In this document: one piece after another, positions 3,873 through 13,822 of the stretch
Numbering within the stretch: position 1 is the stretch's first letter
Layout of the letters: the number at the start of each line of letters is the position of its first letter
Assembly (NCBI GenBank): GCA_014802015.1
Contig: JAAVDB010000042.1
Span: forward strand, 1 to 60,461
Direction: 5' to 3'
Length of the DNA stretch: 60,461 nucleotides
Source of the DNA: Bacteroides sp.
GTDB taxonomy: Bacteria; Bacteroidota; Bacteroidia; Bacteroidales; Muribaculaceae
Position numbers and translations under genes: made by a program
Notes under the pieces: generated by a model
What the model saw: only the letters and a program-made list of their open reading frames with translations
The model's database searches: none
What the model was told of the DNA's origin: nothing

Positions 3873-4739
3873 TTATTCGGACTCCCGGTCAGCGGTATGG
3901 TATTGTACGAGACCATGAATAGGAGCCGATGTAACCATACCTAAATGGCCACCATAACGTCCGAGAGCACGTGTGATATAATCCTTGAAATTCAATGCTA
4001 TCGAACCGACAAAGTGGACCGGTAGCCGGTCAAATCCATCATAATGCAACAGATTATGGCTCACGTAGCGACAGAACTCGTTATAAAGAAATTCTTCAAC
4101 TTCAGGATAACGGACGGCACGAGAAGCGATAAAAGGAGCGAACGATGCGAGAAATCTATTGGCACCCGGCTGACGATAAACCCTTGTTATGATGTCGCCG
4201 ACTGCAAGGTTGAACTCTGCGTCAAATTCTTCCCGTAAAGTTTGAGGAAATCGGCCCTTGAAAAGTTGACCGATAAAAAGCCGACCAATTACCGCACCAC
4301 TACCTTCGTCACCGAGTATATATCCGAGAGGGGAGACATTATCAACGACATTTCGGCCATCATATAAGCAGGAATTGGACCCTGTGCCGAGTATACCTAC
4401 AATTCCCGAATTATCGCCACATACCGCACGTGCTGCGCCCAGCATATCGGAGTGGACATTGATCCGAGCGTTCGGGAAAATAGATTGTAATTCCATGACA
4501 ACTCTATCACAAGCTTCGCTGGTGGCGCATCCTGCACCATAGTAATATATGAAACTTACGTCAGACGAAACATCTGCTAATGATGCAACCGCACCCACAA
4601 GTGATGAAAGATCGCCATCACAACCGGACATAGCGTTATATCCATTAGGGATCTCAACAATTTCTGAGCGTTCGGATCGTGAGTCGATAACAGCCGCGGC
4701 TATCTTTGTGCTCCCGCTATCAAATACTATCTTAATCAT
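3873..4739 (-). CDS. murK: BadF/BcrA-type amino-sugar kinase, probable MurNAc kinase
   Basis: A 288-residue ASKHA-fold sugar kinase. The phosphate-1 loop is FDSGSTK at residues 5-11, the phosphate-2 region includes LGTGSNSCLYDG, and DEGSGAVIGR follows; these are hallmarks of the N-acetylglucosamine/N-acetylmuramate kinases of the BadF/BcrA/D family. It would phosphorylate an imported amino sugar in the cytosol with ATP. It is the last gene of the salvage operon, overlapping the namZ stop by 8 bp. In Tannerella forsythia a MurNAc kinase of this type sits beside the MurNAc permease, so MurNAc is the favoured substrate by context. GlcNAc or a broad specificity cannot be excluded from sequence. 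Confidence 0.8.
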   Translation of the reverse strand: MIKIVFDSGSTKIAAAVIDSRSERSEIVEIPNGYNAMSGCDGDLSSLVGAVASLADVSSDVSFIYYYGAGCATSEACDRVVMELQSIFPNARINVHSDMLGAARAVCGDNSGIVGILGTGSNSCLYDGRNVVDNVSPLGYILGDEGSGAVIGRLFIGQLFKGRFPQTLREEFDAEFNLAVGDIITRVYRQPGANRFLASFAPFIASRAVRYPEVEEFLYNEFCRYVSHNLLHYDGFDRLPVHFVGSIALNFKDYITRALGRYGGHLGMVTSAPIHGLVQYHTADRESE

Positions 4740-6021
4740 ATAGATAATATTTCGAAGTTTCAGCCTTAAATTCCTTTGCCTCGTTCATCCAGAGATCATA
4801 TATGTCATCGACCATATACGAACGTGTAAACTGCTGTCGAATCTTGGCAGAACCACACACCATATCAAACATCTTTAATACAGACTGCGTACCCGAAGCA
4901 AATGCTTTATGGGTAGGGTAGAGCGATGCGAGTTCCTGCATTATATAAAACTGGACAAGTGACAGAGGCGTAGCGGCCCAATCCTGAGCATAAATCTGAA
5001 CTCCACCAAGCTTCTCGCCTTTATACATCGCATAATAAGGTTTGTAATACATCGGTCGAAACTCTATCCCGTCCAATGACAGAGCATTCAGGCGGTCGGC
5101 GAGTTTCTGTGCGTCAATCCATGGAGCACCGGTAAGGCTGAACGGCAATGTGTAACCTACACCTATCGATACATAATTAAGCTCACCCATAATTCCTGTC
5201 GCGGGATACATGAGCGCAGCCTCGGGGGTAGGGATATGAGGCGAGGGGAGTACCCATGGCATACCCGTCTCGGCAAACGTCATGTCGCGATGCCACCCTT
5301 CCATAGGAATTACCGTAAGGCGTACTTTCTTACCCGCAGCCGCGACAATGCCTTTCTCATTAAGATATGTAGCAAGTTCACCCGGAGTCAGACCATATAT
5401 ATAAGGTATTGGAAACTGTCCTACGAATGACTCCCGACCCCTCTCTACAAGATTTCCTTCCACGCGCTCTCCCCCCAACGGATCAGGACGATCAAGCACC
5501 ATGAAATCCTTACCGTCACGTGCGGCTGCCTCCATGGCAAGTCCCATAGTGGATATAAATGTATAACTACGGCAACCTATATCCTGTATGTCATATACAA
5601 GGACATCTATATCTTTGAGCATTTCAGGCGTGGGCTTACGTGTACGACCATGCAGGGAGTAGACAGGAACACCGGTTTTCCGATCCACCTCGTTCATAAC
5701 AGTTTCGCCCGCTGTATAATCACCTCTCACGCCATGTTCGGGAGCGAATAGAGCTGTGAGATTCACGTTTTCGGCCTCAGCGAGTATATCAATAGTCGAA
5801 CGCAAATTGTTGTCAATACCGGTAGGATTTGTTATCAGGCCCACACGTTTACCCGATAATGCAGCAAATCCGGATGCGCGAAGCACTTCGATACCGGGTT
5901 TCACGGTTACGGTTTCCGCGTCCGAATCGGCGGAAGAGACGGCGGTGTTTGCCTCAGGCGGGCAACAAGAAGAGGCCGAAAGTATTGTTGATAATCCGAA
6001 TATGAGAGTTAAAAGTTTCAT
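4732..6021 (-). CDS. namZ: NamZ, exo-beta-N-acetylmuramidase (DUF1343, GH171)
   Basis: 429 residues of the DUF1343 family, whose characterised members (NamZ, GH171) remove terminal MurNAc from the non-reducing end of peptidoglycan fragments. Family signatures are VGLITNPTGID, ALFAPEHGVRGDYTAGE, VPVYSLHGRTRKPT, VLVYDIQDIGCRSYT and GLTPGELATYLNE. The N-terminus (MKLLTLIFGLSTILSASSC) is a signal peptide with a lipobox-like ASSC, so an outer-membrane or periplasmic lipoprotein is likely. It lies 18 bp after the permease gene and overlaps the kinase gene, coupling MurNAc release to import and phosphorylation. Confidence 0.92.
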   Translation of the reverse strand: MKLLTLIFGLSTILSASSCCPPEANTAVSSADSDAETVTVKPGIEVLRASGFAALSGKRVGLITNPTGIDNNLRSTIDILAEAENVNLTALFAPEHGVRGDYTAGETVMNEVDRKTGVPVYSLHGRTRKPTPEMLKDIDVLVYDIQDIGCRSYTFISTMGLAMEAAARDGKDFMVLDRPDPLGGERVEGNLVERGRESFVGQFPIPYIYGLTPGELATYLNEKGIVAAAGKKVRLTVIPMEGWHRDMTFAETGMPWVLPSPHIPTPEAALMYPATGIMGELNYVSIGVGYTLPFSLTGAPWIDAQKLADRLNALSLDGIEFRPMYYKPYYAMYKGEKLGGVQIYAQDWAATPLSLVQFYIMQELASLYPTHKAFASGTQSVLKMFDMVCGSAKIRQQFTRSYMVDDIYDLWMNEAKEFKAETSKYYLYD

Positions 6022-6039
6022 ACGTATTAAGAAATTTTA

Positions 6040-7335
6040 TCAATGTTTACGTCCGAAAGCCGGCGATATTCTTAGTGTATAAGTTACTGCAATCGTGGCC
6101 ACACAGCAAATCATAGTCCAAATAAAGAAATTCTGATAGCCGATGGTTTCCTGAATCCATCCGGCCGCCATGCCCGGCAGCATCATACCAAGCGCCATGA
6201 AACCGGTGCATATACTGTAATGAGCGGTAGCATATTCACCTTCTGAAAAATAAATCAGATATAACATATATGCTGTAAAACCGAACCCATATCCGAATTG
6301 TTCAATGAAGACACACACATTAATCGTCAACAGTCCGGGATCAACTGCATAGCTAAGATATAGAAATGTGAGACATGTGAGTGACATACTCCATGCCATC
6401 GGTTTGAGCCAGAATTTAAGACCTTGACGAGCGGCTACAAGTCCGCCTATAATGCCTCCGAGCGTAAGACCGATAATACCTACTGTCCCGTATACGATAC
6501 CCACCTCTGATGTGGAAAGGCCGAGTCCTCCGGCTGAGACAGGATCGAGTAGAAATGGATTTATGAGTTTTACCAGCTGTGCCTCCGGCAGGCGATAAAG
6601 CAGCATAAACAGTATGGCAATACCAACCTGTTTTTTCTTGAAAAAAGCGACAAAAACGCGAATAAATTCTCTCAGAACATCCTTAATATCCACCTTCGTT
6701 TTATCCTCGGTTGTCTTCTCGACTTTAGGCAGAGACCACGAATGATACAGTGCGAATACAAGAAATAGCGCCGAGAGGATAAAGAATACGACGCTCCATG
6801 CGAATGGCACGTTTCCGGTGTTCGTCTCAAGGCAACCGGCTATCACAACCAATGCTCCCTGTCCAGCCACTGACGCTATACGATACGCGGTGGAGCGAAT
6901 ACCTACATAAAACGACTGTTCGTGCGGGTTGAGAGCCAGCATATAATATCCGTCAGCCGCAATGTCATGCGTAGCTGAGACAAATGCCACGAGCCAGAAT
7001 ACAGCAAGTGTCAGGCTGAAAAAGGATGCAACGGGAAGCGCGAACGCTATACCGGCAAAAGCTATGGCTACGAGCCACTGCATAACAATCACCCAACGTC
7101 TTTTGGTCGAGAAAATATCTACAATCGGGCTCCAGAACGGCTTTATGACCCAAGGCAGATATAGCCAACCTGTGTACAGAGCGATGTCGGTATTGGATAT
7201 GCCAAGCCGCTTATACATGATGACCGATATTGTCATCACGGCTATGTAGGGTAGACCTTGGGCGAAATACAGGGTCGGAACCCATGCCCACGGTGAACGA
7301 GAAGAACCGTTATGTTTACAGACTGTCTTATCCAT
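6040..7335 (-). CDS. AmpG-like MFS permease, probable MurNAc/muropeptide importer
   Basis: A major facilitator protein of about 431 residues with 12 predicted hydrophobic spans. It has AmpG-family features: WVPTLYFAQGLPY at the start of helix 1, LYTGWLYLPWVIKPFWSPIVD, and HDIAADGYY after helix 4. Bacteroidales AmpG relatives such as T. forsythia MurT import MurNAc or anhydro-muropeptides across the inner membrane. The longer frame to 7410 would overlap the upstream gene by 74 bp. The ATG at 7335 (MDKTVCKHNG) begins one base after the upstream stop and is preferred. Neighbours NamZ and the sugar kinase support a MurNAc-type cargo. Confidence 0.88.
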   Translation of the reverse strand: MDKTVCKHNGSSRSPWAWVPTLYFAQGLPYIAVMTISVIMYKRLGISNTDIALYTGWLYLPWVIKPFWSPIVDIFSTKRRWVIVMQWLVAIAFAGIAFALPVASFFSLTLAVFWLVAFVSATHDIAADGYYMLALNPHEQSFYVGIRSTAYRIASVAGQGALVVIAGCLETNTGNVPFAWSVVFFILSALFLVFALYHSWSLPKVEKTTEDKTKVDIKDVLREFIRVFVAFFKKKQVGIAILFMLLYRLPEAQLVKLINPFLLDPVSAGGLGLSTSEVGIVYGTVGIIGLTLGGIIGGLVAARQGLKFWLKPMAWSMSLTCLTFLYLSYAVDPGLLTINVCVFIEQFGYGFGFTAYMLYLIYFSEGEYATAHYSICTGFMALGMMLPGMAAGWIQETIGYQNFFIWTMICCVATIAVTYTLRISPAFGRKH

Positions 7336-7336
7336 T

Positions 7337-8659
7337 CTAATACAATTTATCAATTGATGCGCCGGGGTAATAATGGCGTAATATCTCGTCGTATGTGTAT
7401 CCACGTTCACCCATCACGGCTGCGCCGATCTGACATAGGCCTACACCATGACCCCATCCCGCACCGCGTAATGTAAACAAATTTGGGATAGTATCACCCG
7501 GAGCTATATGACGTTCGACTGTAAATGCAGAACTCAACAGATGTGATTCAGATAACGTGCGCCTTATCATTAACTCCTTGCCGATTACAGACTCACCTTT
7601 CGTCCCTGTTATTTTCAGACGGATGATGCGACCTGAAGAGCCTCGCTCCAACGGTTCGAGTGAGATGATGTCACCAAGTTCCAATCCACTACGCTCGCGG
7701 ATAAGAGAAGAGAGTCGTTCTTGTGTATAATGTTCTGTCCAACGATAGAAGTCACGCCGTTCGAGATCATAGCGATTTAGAACCTGTGATAAGATGCGGT
7801 CATCAGAAGTATTGCAGAATGCGGGAGGATTGCCTTCAATCCATTTCTCTGCTTCTGATTCAATAGACAGATCAGGAAACACTCCTGAATCGACATTATC
7901 ACGACGAGGAGCAAGATAAGGATGATCGATGTCATCCCAGCATGATTCAAACCGTTCGAATATCCCGCCACAGCATTTGGAGAACCGGGCATCACACAGT
8001 TTGCCATCATACATAAGCACCCGGCCTTTGGTATCAGCTACCGCTCCGGCTGCAACAGGGCTCGACACTCTGGCTATCCCCTGATAGCGCTGGCAGTGAT
8101 CATCAGCACATACATCAAACAGGGCATGATCCTCACGATCCCACCATTTTATGATTTCTCCCGGATATTTTTCATGAGGTTTGTTGTATGATTTCTTTAC
8201 TGTCATGGAGCGGTTTTGCATCTGTTTGAGCAACCAGGAACGAGATATTACAGCGTGGGCCCGTAACAATTGCAGCGATGACGTAGCAGCCATCTCGCTA
8301 GATATTACCGAGACGAGATAATCCTCGACCTTAACATCATTTATGGCAATGATTTTACCATCATCCACTACTAATCGTAACGCGCCTCGGAATCGTTGAT
8401 TTTCCTTACGTTGCCAATGGAAATCTACGCCGATAGTTACCCCTTCCAGCTCAAACGAATCTCCGTCATAAGTCGTAGGCTCAAATAGGAGAGAGGTATA
8501 TTTACTACCGTTCCAATCAAATGACAGTCCCGAATCTGACAACGTCGCCGTGTGTCGACCTGTGACTACGCTGTCAGACTGTGTGGAGAAAATACCTGTC
8601 AGATCAAAGGTGATTGATTTGCCGGAAAGTATTCCGACTGATACGTATGGCTCATTCAT
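7337..8659 (-). CDS. SpoIID/LytB domain protein
   Basis: 440 residues. A non-family N-terminal part (about 1-85) is followed by the SpoIID core: FRGALRLVVDDG, INDVKVEDYLVSVISSEM and LLRAHAVISRSWLLKQM. The C-terminal block GAGWGHGVGLCQIGAAVMGERGYTYDEILRHYYPGA is complete, including the conserved catalytic-site glutamate in SSEM. SpoIID enzymes cleave denuded glycan strands between MurNAc and GlcNAc or stimulate amidases. No signal peptide is evident at this start, which is odd for a wall enzyme and may mean cytoplasmic action on imported fragments or non-classical export. It overlaps the DUF4922 gene by 4 bp. Confidence 0.88.
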   Translation of the reverse strand: MNEPYVSVGILSGKSITFDLTGIFSTQSDSVVTGRHTATLSDSGLSFDWNGSKYTSLLFEPTTYDGDSFELEGVTIGVDFHWQRKENQRFRGALRLVVDDGKIIAINDVKVEDYLVSVISSEMAATSSLQLLRAHAVISRSWLLKQMQNRSMTVKKSYNKPHEKYPGEIIKWWDREDHALFDVCADDHCQRYQGIARVSSPVAAGAVADTKGRVLMYDGKLCDARFSKCCGGIFERFESCWDDIDHPYLAPRRDNVDSGVFPDLSIESEAEKWIEGNPPAFCNTSDDRILSQVLNRYDLERRDFYRWTEHYTQERLSSLIRERSGLELGDIISLEPLERGSSGRIIRLKITGTKGESVIGKELMIRRTLSESHLLSSAFTVERHIAPGDTIPNLFTLRGAGWGHGVGLCQIGAAVMGERGYTYDEILRHYYPGASIDKLY

Positions 8660-9606
8660 TGCGACAAACGTTTTGCAAATTCAATAAACTCCGTCGTGGT
8701 GTATGCCACATCGTTATATATCTCCTGCATCGCACCCTCATCAAGACGGTCATAGTCCTCACGACGGGAAGTTATAAACTTACCCATCATCTCTATGGAT
8801 GCCGGACTGACGAGCATCTGATCATTTCCAGTCCCATAACACTCAGGGCGATGGTTCTTGCGTGGTATTATGACAATCCTCGTCGCTCCAGATACTCTGA
8901 ACGCCACGACATTCATCATAGGTTCGTCATCGCAATCGGGGAATGTTCCAAGGATCCGTTCAAACATGGGCTGAGTGTCGGCATAAGTCTTGATATCCAT
9001 TATGAAATATCCGAACGGAGTCATATTCGGACGCGGAAGATATATCCTGCTCTTTCCAACCTTCGGACCTTCAATAAGATACTCACGTTTGATATTGAAA
9101 TTAGCAACATCCACTAAGTTCACCGCTTGAAAATGCATGTGATCCGGGGCAGACGCACCACATTTCGGACCATTATAAAAGATGGCATATTCAGGCAACA
9201 TACGGGCCAGTTCAGCCATATCGGTTATTCTATTTACAATGCGTTGTGGTGTATGTTCCTTGCACACGATAGTCAGATGTAAGTCCGATGCAGGATATGG
9301 ATTGGCTAAAATCTCATAATCTTTCCATTCTACTGACCTCTGTTCGGCAGGTCGTGCGGACCGGCACAGGAAACATGGTCGCTCACCGTTTTCGATAGCC
9401 GAAAGATTTGCCGAAAGGGATGCCTTTCGATAAGAAAGCAAGATTTTTCCTGCGCTCCAGAAACACTTTTCAAACAATATTTCATCGGAAAGGGCTTCGT
9501 CAAAAATTTCGTAATTATTCTTTAACAGCTCCCACTCTTCGACCTGAGAGGAAAATGTGTTTTCAACTATATCATGCACTACACTTACATGAGTAGACTG
9601 TTTCAT
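8656..9606 (-). CDS. DUF4922 protein, GalT/Ap4A-phosphorylase-like (HIT superfamily)
   Basis: 316 residues, recognised as DUF4922. Visible signatures point to the nucleotidyltransferase branch of the HIT superfamily: a CFLC zinc-type pair (Cys78, Cys81), [14 protein letters not shown] with a following EH, and PDHMHFQA giving HxHxQ at His156-His158-Gln160. GalT and Ap4A phosphorylase use HxHxQ to form a nucleotidyl-histidine intermediate. The predicted chemistry is therefore transfer or phosphorolysis of a nucleotide on a sugar-phosphate or NDP-sugar; the substrate is unknown. There is no signal peptide, so it is cytosolic. It shares ATGA-type overlaps with both the GT2 gene and the SpoIID gene, so translation of all three is probably coupled. 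Confidence 0.75.
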
Positions 9607-10913
9607 TTCATTCTTGATTTTAGTTCAAGCGTGCGCAACGTATCTTTATAATAATTGTTAGCATTAATCCGATCGCGTGACAGGGCATGGTCTGAATTAT
9701 CCTCCCATCGACGGCACAGATACAATGATTCATAAATGCGTCCGATGTAATACTGTCGGCTGATAGCAAGTCCAACGGCATAATCCTCTCCATAACATAC
9801 GTCCGGGAATCCGATTGATCTCACAACAGGCGTATAGAATGCTCTCGGCGCTCCGAGTCCGTTAATGCGTAATGCATTGTTCGGGCCATTTTCATCAGTC
9901 CACTCCGAATGATCAATCAGTCCGGGGGGCAGAACATTCCTGTCAAAATCAGTGAGGGTATACGAACCTATGACCATAGCACAGTTTTCGCTCCGAAACT
10001 TATCTACGATCTTCTGTAATGTATTATCTGAAGAATATACGTCATCGCTGTCAAGCTGTATGGCAAACCGTCCACACGAGTCCGAGTTTACCGCAAGATT
10101 CCAACATCCGCCGATACCGATGTAAGAGTAGGGGACGACATCAGTATTGATCACGATTAGCTGTGGGTAGCGGAGCGACAACTCGGCAAGTAGTTCGGCA
10201 GTGCCGTCATCACTTCGGTTGTCAACGACTATCACATTATATGGAAAATCCGTTTTCTGCGTGCATGCAGATTCGACAGCATTCGCAATGGTACGACGGC
10301 GGTTTCTTACCGGGATCACCACACTTGCCTCTACCGGGAATACTCCATCAGAAACACATATATCTTTTCGTTCGGCAGGCGTGACAAGTGCACCGATTGA
10401 TTTCAGATAGTCAGTAACCACCTTTTCCATCTCAATCTGTGATGAGCGGTTACGCGGGTCGACGTATGCGAAATGCACCGCTTCGCCATCCTCCTCTCGT
10501 GTTGGCTGTACACAATAAATCGGTTCAGGACAATAGGCCGGTAATCCATTTCTGATCAGCCGCAAACGCAGGTCATACCACCCAGCCGCCAAATAATCAC
10601 ATGAAGTATCTGCCAACGCCTCACGAACAGCCGACGTACGGGCGACAACCAACTTGCCAAAATCGAAATCATCACGCAGAGAACCCTCCTGATAGGGAAT
10701 ATGCCTTTTAATCTCACCGTTCTCGACATAATCACAATACACAAACGGTGCGCCTGACATCTCAAGGACCTGTTCAAGGCGTTCAAGCCCGAGATAATTA
10801 AACTCCGTATGACAATCAGACAGAGATATTATCGTATATTCGCTATCTGTTTCAGCGAGTTGCCGCATCCGTCGCGTAGAGAGTAGCGGGTATGTGGTAT
10901 TATCTTTTTTCAT
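9603..10913 (-). CDS. Family 2 glycosyltransferase with an extra N-terminal GT-like half
   Basis: 436 residues. A canonical GT-A/GT2 domain starts near residue 174 ([20 protein letters not shown], then [12 protein letters not shown]) and carries the DXD-type metal site in [10 protein letters not shown]. The first about 170 residues ([34 protein letters not shown]) look like the second half of another GT2 domain without its own nucleotide-binding start. It would transfer a sugar from an NDP-sugar in the cytosol; donor and acceptor are unknown. It lies 53 bp after the amidase gene and overlaps the DUF4922 gene by 4 bp, so it belongs to the salvage operon. Confidence 0.8.
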
Positions 10914-10966
10914 TGCAGAAATGCTTATAAATCATGGTTTGATAGATGTGGCGAAGAGAGAGATTA

Positions 10967-13822
10967 TTATGATCTTCTGCGTCGTGGACGCCGTGGCTCA
11001 TTGGCGCTTAGTTCAGCCGGATCTCTCAAAAACGGGAACATACCGTCTCCACTATATGCATCCGGCAAAAGTGAATCCTCTTCAGGGGGTAAAAATGCAC
11101 CTGCCGGCAACTTTACAGCAACATATTGAGGCTTGACAGACAGATATGCCAGGATCTGGGACATCAGTTTGTTGCGGGCATCGGCCCGATCTATAGTCTC
11201 AAACGGGAAACCGATAACGACAGCTCTGTGCGATGGTGTTGTTATTGCCGTACCGGCGGGATAATCATTCTCACAATATCTCAGGACCACCGAACCACTA
11301 CCTTTTATCGGCATAAATGATTCCGGTGATTCTACAGCATAGCATTCGGATGACAATTGCTGGTTGAAGCAGAACTTCAATCCTCCGTCAAACTGTTTTA
11401 TACCGGATTTTACCTCACGTACCTCACCGGTTATGGTTGCCTTTGCCTGCCGCCAGTCAACACCGAGGACAGAGTGAGCAAACTCGCGATCAGCCTGTGC
11501 GACAGATGGCATACTATACTTATTCTCAAATAGATCAGCACCGATATAACTGCCACTCACCATCAGTGCCGTTCCGGCATCTGTAAGTTCCGTGAGGCGC
11601 TGTTTTAATTCAGCAGTGAAAGGTTTGAATTTTGTCGCAGAGGTTACGCCTACCGTGATCTCTTTCTGTTTACCGAGAATCAGATCTACGATAGCTGGAT
11701 TTGAGCCGGATTTGACAAACGCATCCACTCCTGAGGATATAAACGAATGTCCCGCAGCCTTGACCGACAATCCATGAGTATAAACAAAGTCGAACGTATT
11801 TCCGACAATTATCCGAGTCTCGTGTGTAGCCCTGCTCGCACCGTGGCCCGGAGCATCGTTAGAAACCCACGGTTGACCGGGGCGAAACTCCGTCTGTGCT
11901 CCCGTGAAAAGCAAATCGTTCACATAAGGCACTCCATGATCTTCCTCATAGTCAAAACCTATATGTCCATCCCGATACACTTCAGCAGGACCCGACACGC
12001 GGGTAAACCCGTTTACGATAGTCACCTGAGGTGCATCTCCTGGCATATAACACAATGCAAGCGTTTCAGATGGGAAACTACGTCCGCCGTCATTAGCTGC
12101 AACTATTCTGTAACTGTAAATCCGGCTGTCCTCAGGCGTGACATTCAGATATGGATCATCCGTGATGGCGAGTTCTGTAAATGCGCCGTCATCAACACGT
12201 TCATATACTATGTAATACTTTGCTTTCGCTGTAGTTTCGAGAGGGTCGGGGACAGGAGTCCATCTAAGGGTATAATTCCCATTATCGCCCGTAATCTCGA
12301 AATTCTTGACAGGAAGCGGAGCCACTACATAAGGTGTCCCGCTTGTCTGATGCAAGTATTTCAGAATACCTTTATATATAGCTCGACTTACATGAAACCG
12401 AAATTCCGGGTCGAGACCGTAACGCATATCCGCAAAATTCTGATGACTCAGCAATTCAAGCAACATGGCGGGCACTTGAGGTTCGCGAGCTTCATGATAT
12501 TGCTTATTCCTAAGTTTTCTTCGGGTCCATTGCGGGTCATATAGTTGCCAAATATCGTCAATGATCTGACTGGTGACGATATTGGCATAGGTCTCCGATG
12601 TCTTACGGCTACGGCCGTCACCAAGGGTCCCTCCGGCTGTAGATATGATCGGAAGAGTTCCTATTGTTGTCACATCATCACCAGTGGTTCCGGCATCGGT
12701 GTGGAGAGCGAATGACAGATCGACAGGTATGCCGAGGCCTTTCTGACCCGGCAATGACTTCGATCCACCGGCCAGATAATTGACCCATAAGCCACGTGAC
12801 TTATAATCATCTTCATAATCGTTTGAGCCATCGGTAATAGAGTATACGCTTGATGGCATTCCCGCCCACTGCAACCAGTAGCGCGCACCCTCCATAAATC
12901 TTGGATAGCCGCTGGTGGCAGCAGTCTCGCTATATCCTCGTTTAACGTTACCGGTCCCACCACCAATCTTTACAGCATCGGCAGTGATAACCTTGCCCTC
13001 ATCATCCGAAACATTGGTAAGCGTAACGACGGGACTCGAACCCTTCTCAAACGGAAATGTTCCGAGATACACCCATGTACCTCCACCCATCGTCTGATTG
13101 ACCTGAAATTCTTCTATGCCACGCATTGACCTTACTGCATATCGGGCATCGCGGGCACTTTCAGGCAAGGATGCATAACTAACATATAGTGCATATTCAC
13201 CGGTCTCGGGTATATCTGCCGTCCATGTGGCCGACGAAGCCTTACCGGCATCTTTTACAGTCGAGATCTTACGTAATGAACCCTGTTTGAATGGATTCAG
13301 AGTCCCGGACAGGACCTCGGATTTGTGAGCGAAACCTGAGACACCGGATGCTGATTCCCAATGCTTGCTACCATTTTGTTCAGCATAACCGTTTTGAGCG
13401 AGCCCTCCGTCACCGTCGACTATAACCTCGACAGACGATGTGTCACGTTCGCGAGGCATCATCACGTATGCACCCGCATTCTCAAGCATGGGCACAAGAA
13501 ATGGGTATATATAGCTTGCGGAATAAAGATCCTCAACCGTACCGAGCAGTCGTCCGCGTTGCCACTGCCAGCGATCTTCAGCCGAATCATAGTAACGGCC
13601 ATGACTCGCCCATAGAGCAATATTTCTGCCATCAAGCCCGGATGGCGCTTCGGGAGCATCAAGCCTTACTACAAACGGTCCTGATGTTCTCGGTTCAGCC
13701 TTGACCGTATTGACGGCGACGGCACGACGCCCGGATGATTTCTTTTTGGATTTACGGGTGGCACCATCACAGGTCAACGCCGAGAGTACGACTAATAATA
13801 TAAGTGTAAAATATTTATTCAT
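10967..13822 (-). CDS. Secreted N-acetylmuramoyl-L-alanine amidase with golvesin-like and FN3 modules
   Basis: 951 residues, often annotated as xanthan lyase, but the catalytic parts are Amidase_3-like: ALWASHGRYYDS near residue 67, VMMPRERD, SFALHTDAG near 390, and PAMLLELLSHQN with its glutamate. Between the first and second halves is an insert of about 220 residues resembling a golvesin/CBM beta-sandwich (TWTADIPETGEYALYVSY, GGTWVYLGTFPFEKGSS). A fibronectin-III domain (PLPVKNFEITGDNGNYTLRW) and a large C-terminal domain follow. A signal peptide (MNKYFTLILLVVLSALTCDGA) sends it to the periplasm or surface. It would strip stem peptides from peptidoglycan. It is the first gene of the operon, with the promoter about 95 bp upstream. 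Confidence 0.85.
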   Translation of the reverse strand: MNKYFTLILLVVLSALTCDGATRKSKKKSSGRRAVAVNTVKAEPRTSGPFVVRLDAPEAPSGLDGRNIALWASHGRYYDSAEDRWQWQRGRLLGTVEDLYSASYIYPFLVPMLENAGAYVMMPRERDTSSVEVIVDGDGGLAQNGYAEQNGSKHWESASGVSGFAHKSEVLSGTLNPFKQGSLRKISTVKDAGKASSATWTADIPETGEYALYVSYASLPESARDARYAVRSMRGIEEFQVNQTMGGGTWVYLGTFPFEKGSSPVVTLTNVSDDEGKVITADAVKIGGGTGNVKRGYSETAATSGYPRFMEGARYWLQWAGMPSSVYSITDGSNDYEDDYKSRGLWVNYLAGGSKSLPGQKGLGIPVDLSFALHTDAGTTGDDVTTIGTLPIISTAGGTLGDGRSRKTSETYANIVTSQIIDDIWQLYDPQWTRRKLRNKQYHEAREPQVPAMLLELLSHQNFADMRYGLDPEFRFHVSRAIYKGILKYLHQTSGTPYVVAPLPVKNFEITGDNGNYTLRWTPVPDPLETTAKAKYYIVYERVDDGAFTELAITDDPYLNVTPEDSRIYSYRIVAANDGGRSFPSETLALCYMPGDAPQVTIVNGFTRVSGPAEVYRDGHIGFDYEEDHGVPYVNDLLFTGAQTEFRPGQPWVSNDAPGHGASRATHETRIIVGNTFDFVYTHGLSVKAAGHSFISSGVDAFVKSGSNPAIVDLILGKQKEITVGVTSATKFKPFTAELKQRLTELTDAGTALMVSGSYIGADLFENKYSMPSVAQADREFAHSVLGVDWRQAKATITGEVREVKSGIKQFDGGLKFCFNQQLSSECYAVESPESFMPIKGSGSVVLRYCENDYPAGTAITTPSHRAVVIGFPFETIDRADARNKLMSQILAYLSVKPQYVAVKLPAGAFLPPEEDSLLPDAYSGDGMFPFLRDPAELSANEPRRPRRRRS

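Follow-up and report, generated by a model that had tools for sequence, protein, structure and literature searches.

AnmK-MurQ and AnmK-MupP-AmgK-MurU recycling are known ways of using anhydro-N-acetylmuramic acid (anhydroMurNAc, anhMurNAc) units imported through the permease AmpG (PMC13041923). In Tannerella forsythia, the genes Tanf_08345-Tanf_08385 form one transcript by reverse-transcription PCR, and the middle genes are named gtf (glycosyltransferase family 2, GT2), gtf (DUF4922), and lytB (SpoIID) (PMC5388701). Here we analyse the related operon of a Bacteroides sp. (Muribaculaceae), located in a 60,461-nucleotide stretch of contig JAAVDB010000042.1 (the window), and focus on its three middle genes, which encode a GT2 glycosyltransferase, a DUF4922 protein, and a SpoIID-type protein (the trio). 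The first-pass annotation of the window had pointed to a route not known to be described, in which a recovered sugar phosphate becomes an NDP-sugar that the glycosyltransferase uses. The operon itself is already known from T. forsythia, and for the enzyme trio in its middle our literature searches found no described function; the available portions of the T. forsythia papers assign none to the gtf genes or lytB (PMC5388701, PMC7670621).

The ampG-murTKQ operon of T. forsythia (locus L091) has the same gene order as the window up to NamZ, and the single transcript and the tested AmpG are on record for it (PMC5388701, PMC7670621). AmpG is needed there for growth on sources of N-acetylglucosamine (GlcNAc)-MurNAc and GlcNAc-anhMurNAc (PMC7670621). 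The window differs in that murT and murQ are not part of its operon, and its AmpG shares 57% identity with that of T. forsythia. A 2020 paper on T. forsythia names the processing of AmpG-imported fragments as an important question under study (PMC7670621). The trio is a specific candidate for this step, encoded in the same transcript and cloneable.

Co-occurrence of the trio with AmpG and its inverse relation to AnmK

We compared 198 genomes of the phylum and 41 relatives, with G000 common to both samples, giving 238 distinct genomes. DUF4922 is present at full strength in 28 of the 198 phylum genomes, counted after removal of extra split matches in G087. The long-match type of SpoIID, a class set by eye from match length (339-357 bases versus 255-288), occurs in exactly these 28. 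GT2 is found in 27 of them (the exception is G196) and in none of the other 170. Among the relatives, DUF4922 and SpoIID are common to 28 genomes, and GT2 occurs in these 28 and in one weak case (G035). All three genes are together in 54 of the 238 distinct genomes, with two partial cases, and the co-occurrence persists where the genes lie far apart, as in G224, G228 (SpoIID apart), and G114 (three contigs). Weak DUF4922 matches in G067, G176, and G200 (19.8-26.6 bits) were dropped; the two that were inspected resemble small HIT proteins.

Gene neighbourhoods were examined in 80 named loci, an uneven sample made up of the best 80 of at least 585 confirmed matches to one peptide pattern. Adjacency counts exclude loci that are too short on one side, hence the varying denominators. 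In the Bacteroidales loci, GT2 adjoins DUF4922 in 65 of 71 and SpoIID lies beside it in 70 of 73, while AmpG (57/61) and NamZ (36/50) are located nearby, a BadF kinase downstream (37/50), and an amidase upstream (37/58). The seven-gene arrangement is therefore not a chance one. Moreover, the trio proteins are fused in part of the loci: six of the 80 carry a DUF4922-SpoIID fusion and another six a GT2-DUF4922-SpoIID fusion, and the six fusions scanned with Pfam (four triple, two double) keep the domain order GT2-DUF4922-SpoIID. In addition, G032 contains an additional DUF4922-SpoIID frame, and G013, G016, and G024 each have the GT2 and DUF4922 matches within a single open frame. The unexplained middle of the operon is thus a trio, with the SpoIID-type protein as the constant third partner. 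DUF4922 and GT2 had at first been taken as a unit; their linkage holds, and the pair gives way to a trio, since SpoIID co-occurs with them and is fused in 12 of the 80 loci.

AmpG was scored with profile A6 (E <= 1e-40), built from trio-linked permeases. Within the phylum sample, every one of the 28 genomes with the trio has it, as do 32 of the 170 others. Together with the 57 loci that have AmpG near DUF4922, this upholds the assignment of the genes to peptidoglycan salvage; DUF4922-GT2 pairs lying mostly outside salvage loci, which would have spoken against it, were not what we found, though the genes are often scattered in families f32 and f50.

Within the 60 AmpG-positive genomes, all 32 that are without the trio carry AnmK, compared with 9 of the 28 trio genomes (p 3e-9); for MurQ the corresponding counts are 32 of 32 and 20 of 28 (p 0.001). 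Across the phylum sample, MurQ is present in 20 of 28 genomes with the trio and 120 of 170 without. Compared with the AnmK routes, which serve the same task, 19 of the 28 trio genomes thus lack AnmK and 8 of 28 lack MurQ, and three other enzymes are present instead. Eight trio genomes, G000 included, are without both AnmK and MurQ; 43 of the 170 trio-less genomes are also without both, and none of those is AmpG-positive by profile A6. AnmK was not found in G000, a genome that is 87% complete. Each trio family sampled more than once (f30, f32, f35, f46, f50) has AnmK-positive and AnmK-negative members. In the relatives, AnmK occurs in 1 of 28 trio genomes versus 8 of 13 others, or 1/6 versus 8/11 by family. 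NamZ is found in 194 of the 198 phylum genomes regardless of the trio, and G049 has the trio without NamZ, so DUF4922 and GT2 are not kept only with namZ. Trio retention tracks AmpG and, inversely, AnmK; it does not track NamZ or MurQ.

Catalytic motifs and location of the trio proteins

The SpoIID-type protein shares with the lytic transglycosylase SpoIID of spore formers the family match, the context of the catalytic glutamate, and the zinc-type motif H-x5-C-x(3,4)-HCQ-x-Y. In Clostridioides difficile SpoIID, E101, C140, and H145 are required for peptidoglycan activity in vitro, and H145A has only a limited effect on sporulation (PMC6221140). Glu122 of the window protein, the counterpart of E101, is invariant in alignment A3, and its SSEM context is present in 70 of 74 trio SpoIID open reading frames (ORFs). 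The zinc-type motif is found in 74 of 74 and also in the C. difficile stretch; all 12 other-type SpoIID paralogues lack it. In contrast to the spore-former enzyme, the trio protein has no signal peptide, carries an added stretch, and is fused with DUF4922 and GT2 in some loci. The sampled phylum is, to our knowledge, not known for spores.

A hydropathy threshold, applied without a signal-peptide predictor, detects a hydrophobic N-terminus in 0 of 62 trio SpoIID proteins. Because this threshold is strict (of 42 amidases just 12 pass it, and of 49 NamZ proteins 18), the N-terminal medians carry more weight: trio SpoIID has a median of 0.88, whereas the amidases reach 1.66 and NamZ 1.68. Among the 12 other-type paralogues taken as a control, nine have a hydrophobic segment after a Met, two have one without a clear start, and one has none. 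One of 68 DUF4922 ORFs passes the same threshold, and the fusion in L077 has an internal hydrophobic segment (1.88). Because the signal peptide is absent though the transglycosylase motifs are kept, the trio SpoIID protein is probably cytosolic, and not part of the outside route in which it had been placed initially.

DUF4922 has the fold of the GalT/Ap4A-phosphorylase branch of the HIT superfamily, and its best fold match is yeast diadenosine tetraphosphate (Ap4A) phosphorylase. HxHxQ is a transferase or phosphorylase signature; in DUF4922, H156, H158, F159, and Q160 are invariant in 64 sequences, and HxHFQ is found in 76 of 80 ORFs. Cys78 and Cys81 are likewise invariant in the 64 sequences. 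This CxxC is an addition relative to yeast Ap4A phosphorylase Apa2, with which DUF4922 shares ~15% identity, and unlike Apa2, DUF4922 has SpoIID as a partner in every genome that we examined. Besides Apa2, the plant GDP-L-galactose phosphorylase is a related comparison enzyme.

GT2 shows the GT2 profile, the GT-A fold, and a DxD-type motif; the latter, QLDSDD, is present in 71 of 72 relatives, and its residues are invariant in alignment A5. Its best PDB sequence match is the K4 chondroitin polymerase K4CP (E 4.2e-22), which likewise has two GT2-like halves, and it differs from K4CP in that its first half is without DxD, as judged by eye. The window protein has 436 residues and lacks ~50 N-terminal residues of most relatives. 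Further upstream, the GT2 profile match continues across two TGA codons and reaches the end of the amidase gene (window 9603-10985).

A candidate route for imported disaccharides

We consider it rather probable that the trio processes peptide-free disaccharide imported by AmpG, above all GlcNAc-anhydroMurNAc, and thereby makes AnmK dispensable. The exact chemistry set out here, in which we infer the substrates and all reactions and directions, is tentative and less likely than not to be right in full. Outside the cell, the amidase and NamZ would prepare fragments, and AmpG would import GlcNAc-(anhydro)MurNAc. In the cytosol, the SpoIID-type enzyme may run lytic-transglycosylase chemistry backwards and open the 1,6-anhydro ring. 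The inverting GT2 would then act in reverse with a nucleoside diphosphate (NDP), converting GlcNAc-beta-1,4-MurNAc to NDP-GlcNAc and MurNAc, and DUF4922 would serve as an NDP-sugar phosphorylase akin to the Ap4A/GDP-sugar phosphorylases, turning NDP-GlcNAc and phosphate into GlcNAc-1-phosphate and NDP. The three enzymes together would amount to a disaccharide phosphorylase in effect. The MurNAc may enter MurK and MurQ, with release of D-lactate, or AmgK-MurU, and D-lactate could be handled by the dehydrogenase-type oxidase encoded in many of these operons. Release of MurNAc followed by MurK fits because the window kinase is MurK-type by motif.

Growth data from T. forsythia are in line with an enzyme that requires a disaccharide. 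No AnmK is predicted in this bacterium, yet GlcNAc-anhMurNAc is used; free anhMurNAc gives poor growth (optical density, OD, ~0.32), and Slt70 digests rich in GlcNAc-anhMurNAc-peptides give OD ~0.8 (PMC7670621).

Several points weigh against this disaccharide route. No activity is known for any member of the trio, and the reverse GT2 step alone is uphill and would gain from fusion to the enzyme that follows. Uptake could also be the cause of the poor growth on free anhMurNAc. The AnmK comparison is uncorrected for descent among related genomes: 23 of the 28 trio genomes among the relatives belong to one genus, that of the window, and the two trio-less members of that genus are also without AnmK. 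AnmK is kept in nine trio genomes, and a divergent AmpG elsewhere may escape a profile made from trio-linked permeases. Furthermore, the trio genes are often scattered in families f32 and f50, where SpoIID adjoins a glycosyltransferase family 4 (GT4) gene, a layout that the model leaves unexplained, and the SpoIID match in G228 (C1:815898-816242) contains one TAG stop.

A variant of the chemistry that conserves bond energy appears quite unlikely. Here, the SpoIID-type enzyme would open GlcNAc-anhydroMurNAc with phosphate, not water, and DUF4922 would convert the resulting sugar-1-phosphate to a UDP-sugar, either UDP-MurNAc or UDP-GlcNAc released through GT2. The glycosyl phosphate would retain the bond energy, and wall fragments would rejoin precursor synthesis with no need for AnmK, MurQ, AmgK, or MurU. 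Such a route would account for the eight AmpG-positive trio genomes that lack both AnmK and MurQ, and it would make the lytic-transglycosylase fold a cytosolic phosphorylase.

The trio may also be read in the forward direction, with DUF4922 turning a recovered sugar-1-phosphate into an NDP-sugar, GT2 passing the sugar on to an acceptor, which may be the imported disaccharide or a precursor of a surface glycan, and SpoIID trimming or opening the product. GT2 enzymes normally work forward, the nearest structures belong to synthases and transferases, and some outlying genomes have a GNAT or GT4 gene in the neighbourhood. However, a forward route offers no reason why, among AmpG-positive genomes, AnmK is absent only from those with the trio, and the operon kinase, being a MurK-type 6-kinase, would supply no sugar-1-phosphate; we regard this reading as unlikely. 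The scattering in f32 and f50, where trio genes lie beside GT4, BatA-type, and other unrelated genes, would suit a trio that uses peptidoglycan sugars to build some separate glycan or signal molecule, linked to salvage by shared substrate or regulation only. This is very unlikely, since AmpG is in all 28 trio genomes and other families of this phylum again place the trio beside AmpG, together with a clear but different Amidase_3 protein (L131, 136 bits) or with a GH3/beta-lactamase protein (L130, L135); in L133, L134, and L135 it also lies beside BadF-family kinases. Least probable by far is a housekeeping phosphorylase that cleans up Ap4A or NDP-sugars and merely travels with the operon. The fold match to the yeast enzyme and the Ap4A_phos_N score would agree with it, whereas the restriction of full-strength DUF4922 to the same 28 of 198 genomes that carry the long-insert SpoIID, and the 12 loci in which DUF4922 is fused to SpoIID, argue against it.

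If the disaccharide route is correct, it gives peptidoglycan recycling in Bacteroidales a branch that does without AnmK, and the trio may replace a known recycling enzyme in bacteria related to common gut species. It would also give DUF4922 a first role and the SpoIID family, best known from spore formers, a job that is probably cytosolic. Recovery of wall fragments by these bacteria would presumably bear on the amount that reaches the host. Several genomes labelled Prevotella encode the trio as a single polypeptide, a form that lends itself to assay.

Organization of the window operon and its neighbours

The seven ORFs occupying positions 3873-13822 all lie on the minus strand (Table 1). GT2 follows the amidase gene after 53 bp, and both GT2/DUF4922 and DUF4922/SpoIID overlap by 4 bp. 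SpoIID is separated from AmpG by 1 bp, given that AmpG starts at the ATG at 7335, which is the best choice over the upstream GTG at 7410. NamZ follows AmpG after 18 bp and overlaps the kinase gene by 8 bp. The ORFs and spacing confirm the seven-gene operon with 4-bp overlaps around DUF4922 that the first-pass annotation had described.

Table 1 Genes and motifs of the operon in the window
Feature	Position	Strand	Remarks
Amidase-like secreted protein, 951 aa, with Golvesin_C domain	10967..13822	-	Counterpart of T. forsythia Tanf_08345; Golvesin_C 91 bits; Amidase_3 just 21.1, below cut-off 27
GT2 glycosyltransferase, two-domain type, trio member 1	9603..10913	-	Glycos_transf_2 66.4 bits
GT2 motif QLDSDD, residues 286-291	10041..10058	-	
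DUF4922 protein, Ap4A-phosphorylase-like, trio member 2	8656..9606	-	DUF4922 146.3 bits; Ap4A_phos_N 27.1 bits (cut-off 23.1)
DUF4922 Cys78-x-x-Cys81	9364..9375	-	
DUF4922 His156-Met-His158-Phe-Gln160 (HxHxQ)	9127..9141	-	
SpoIID-type lytic-transglycosylase-like protein without signal peptide, trio member 3	7337..8659	-	TIGR02669 SpoIID/LytB 165.8 (cut-off 83.3); PF08486 76.6 (cut-off 23)
SpoIID Glu122, counterpart of C. difficile E101 by SEM context	8294..8296	-	
SpoIID zinc-type motif His178-x5-Cys184-x3-His188-Cys189-Gln-x-Tyr192	8084..8128	-	
AmpG-type permease	6040..7335	-	TIGR00901 179.8 bits, below curated cut-off 350
NamZ exo-N-acetylmuramidase, probable lipoprotein	4732..6021	-	NamZ_N 282.3 and NamZ_C 137.1 bits
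MurK-type BadF-family kinase	3873..4739	-	BadF 37.1 bits (cut-off 31.5); NVSPLG motif

The amidase-like protein has a hydrophobic N-terminus, and one of five orthologues scanned passes the Amidase_3 cut-off. NamZ is identified by both of its domains. Of 69 AmpG ORFs, 25 have at least 550 residues; the two inspected, in L047 (7741-9636) and L158 (G228), share the site of an insert of ~150-185 residues, which separates two membrane segments.

The window kinase is 37.6% identical to MurK of L091 and 33.2% to K1058. In MurK, S133-P134-L135 lies at the lactyl pocket (PMC10465942), and because the window kinase carries this Ser-Pro-Leu motif, it appears to be MurK-type, which fits 6-phosphorylation of MurNAc. 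There is then no need for it to feed DUF4922. A second BadF kinase is found in 11 loci (including L091:4188-5096) and is nearer to T. forsythia K1058, whose natural substrate is reported as unknown (PMC10465942), than to MurK.

Further genes accompany the operon in the named loci, where D-lactate oxidase, MurT, and MurQ are named by position and domains. An FAD/4Fe-4S oxidase of the D-lactate-dehydrogenase type lies within the operon in 33 of 80 (for example L063:5662-8475), and in G114, where the trio is scattered, such an oxidase adjoins GT2 (L142:9657-12584). The MurT place is taken by a protein in 32 of 80 (HGSNAT_cat 20.3 bits, cut-off 22 and thus not reached), and the MurQ place by a SIS protein in 34 of 80. 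A GT4-type gene follows SpoIID in L127, L128, L138, L139, and L140, which represent two outlying families (domain checked in L139 only). A GNAT acetyltransferase gene is inserted between GT2 and DUF4922 at L132:8672-9181 and L134:8620-9144 (domain checked in L132 only). Finally, eight of the 80 loci encode a protein with glycoside hydrolase family 9 and polysaccharide-deacetylase domains, which in L060 (12260-14731) is located between SpoIID and AmpG.

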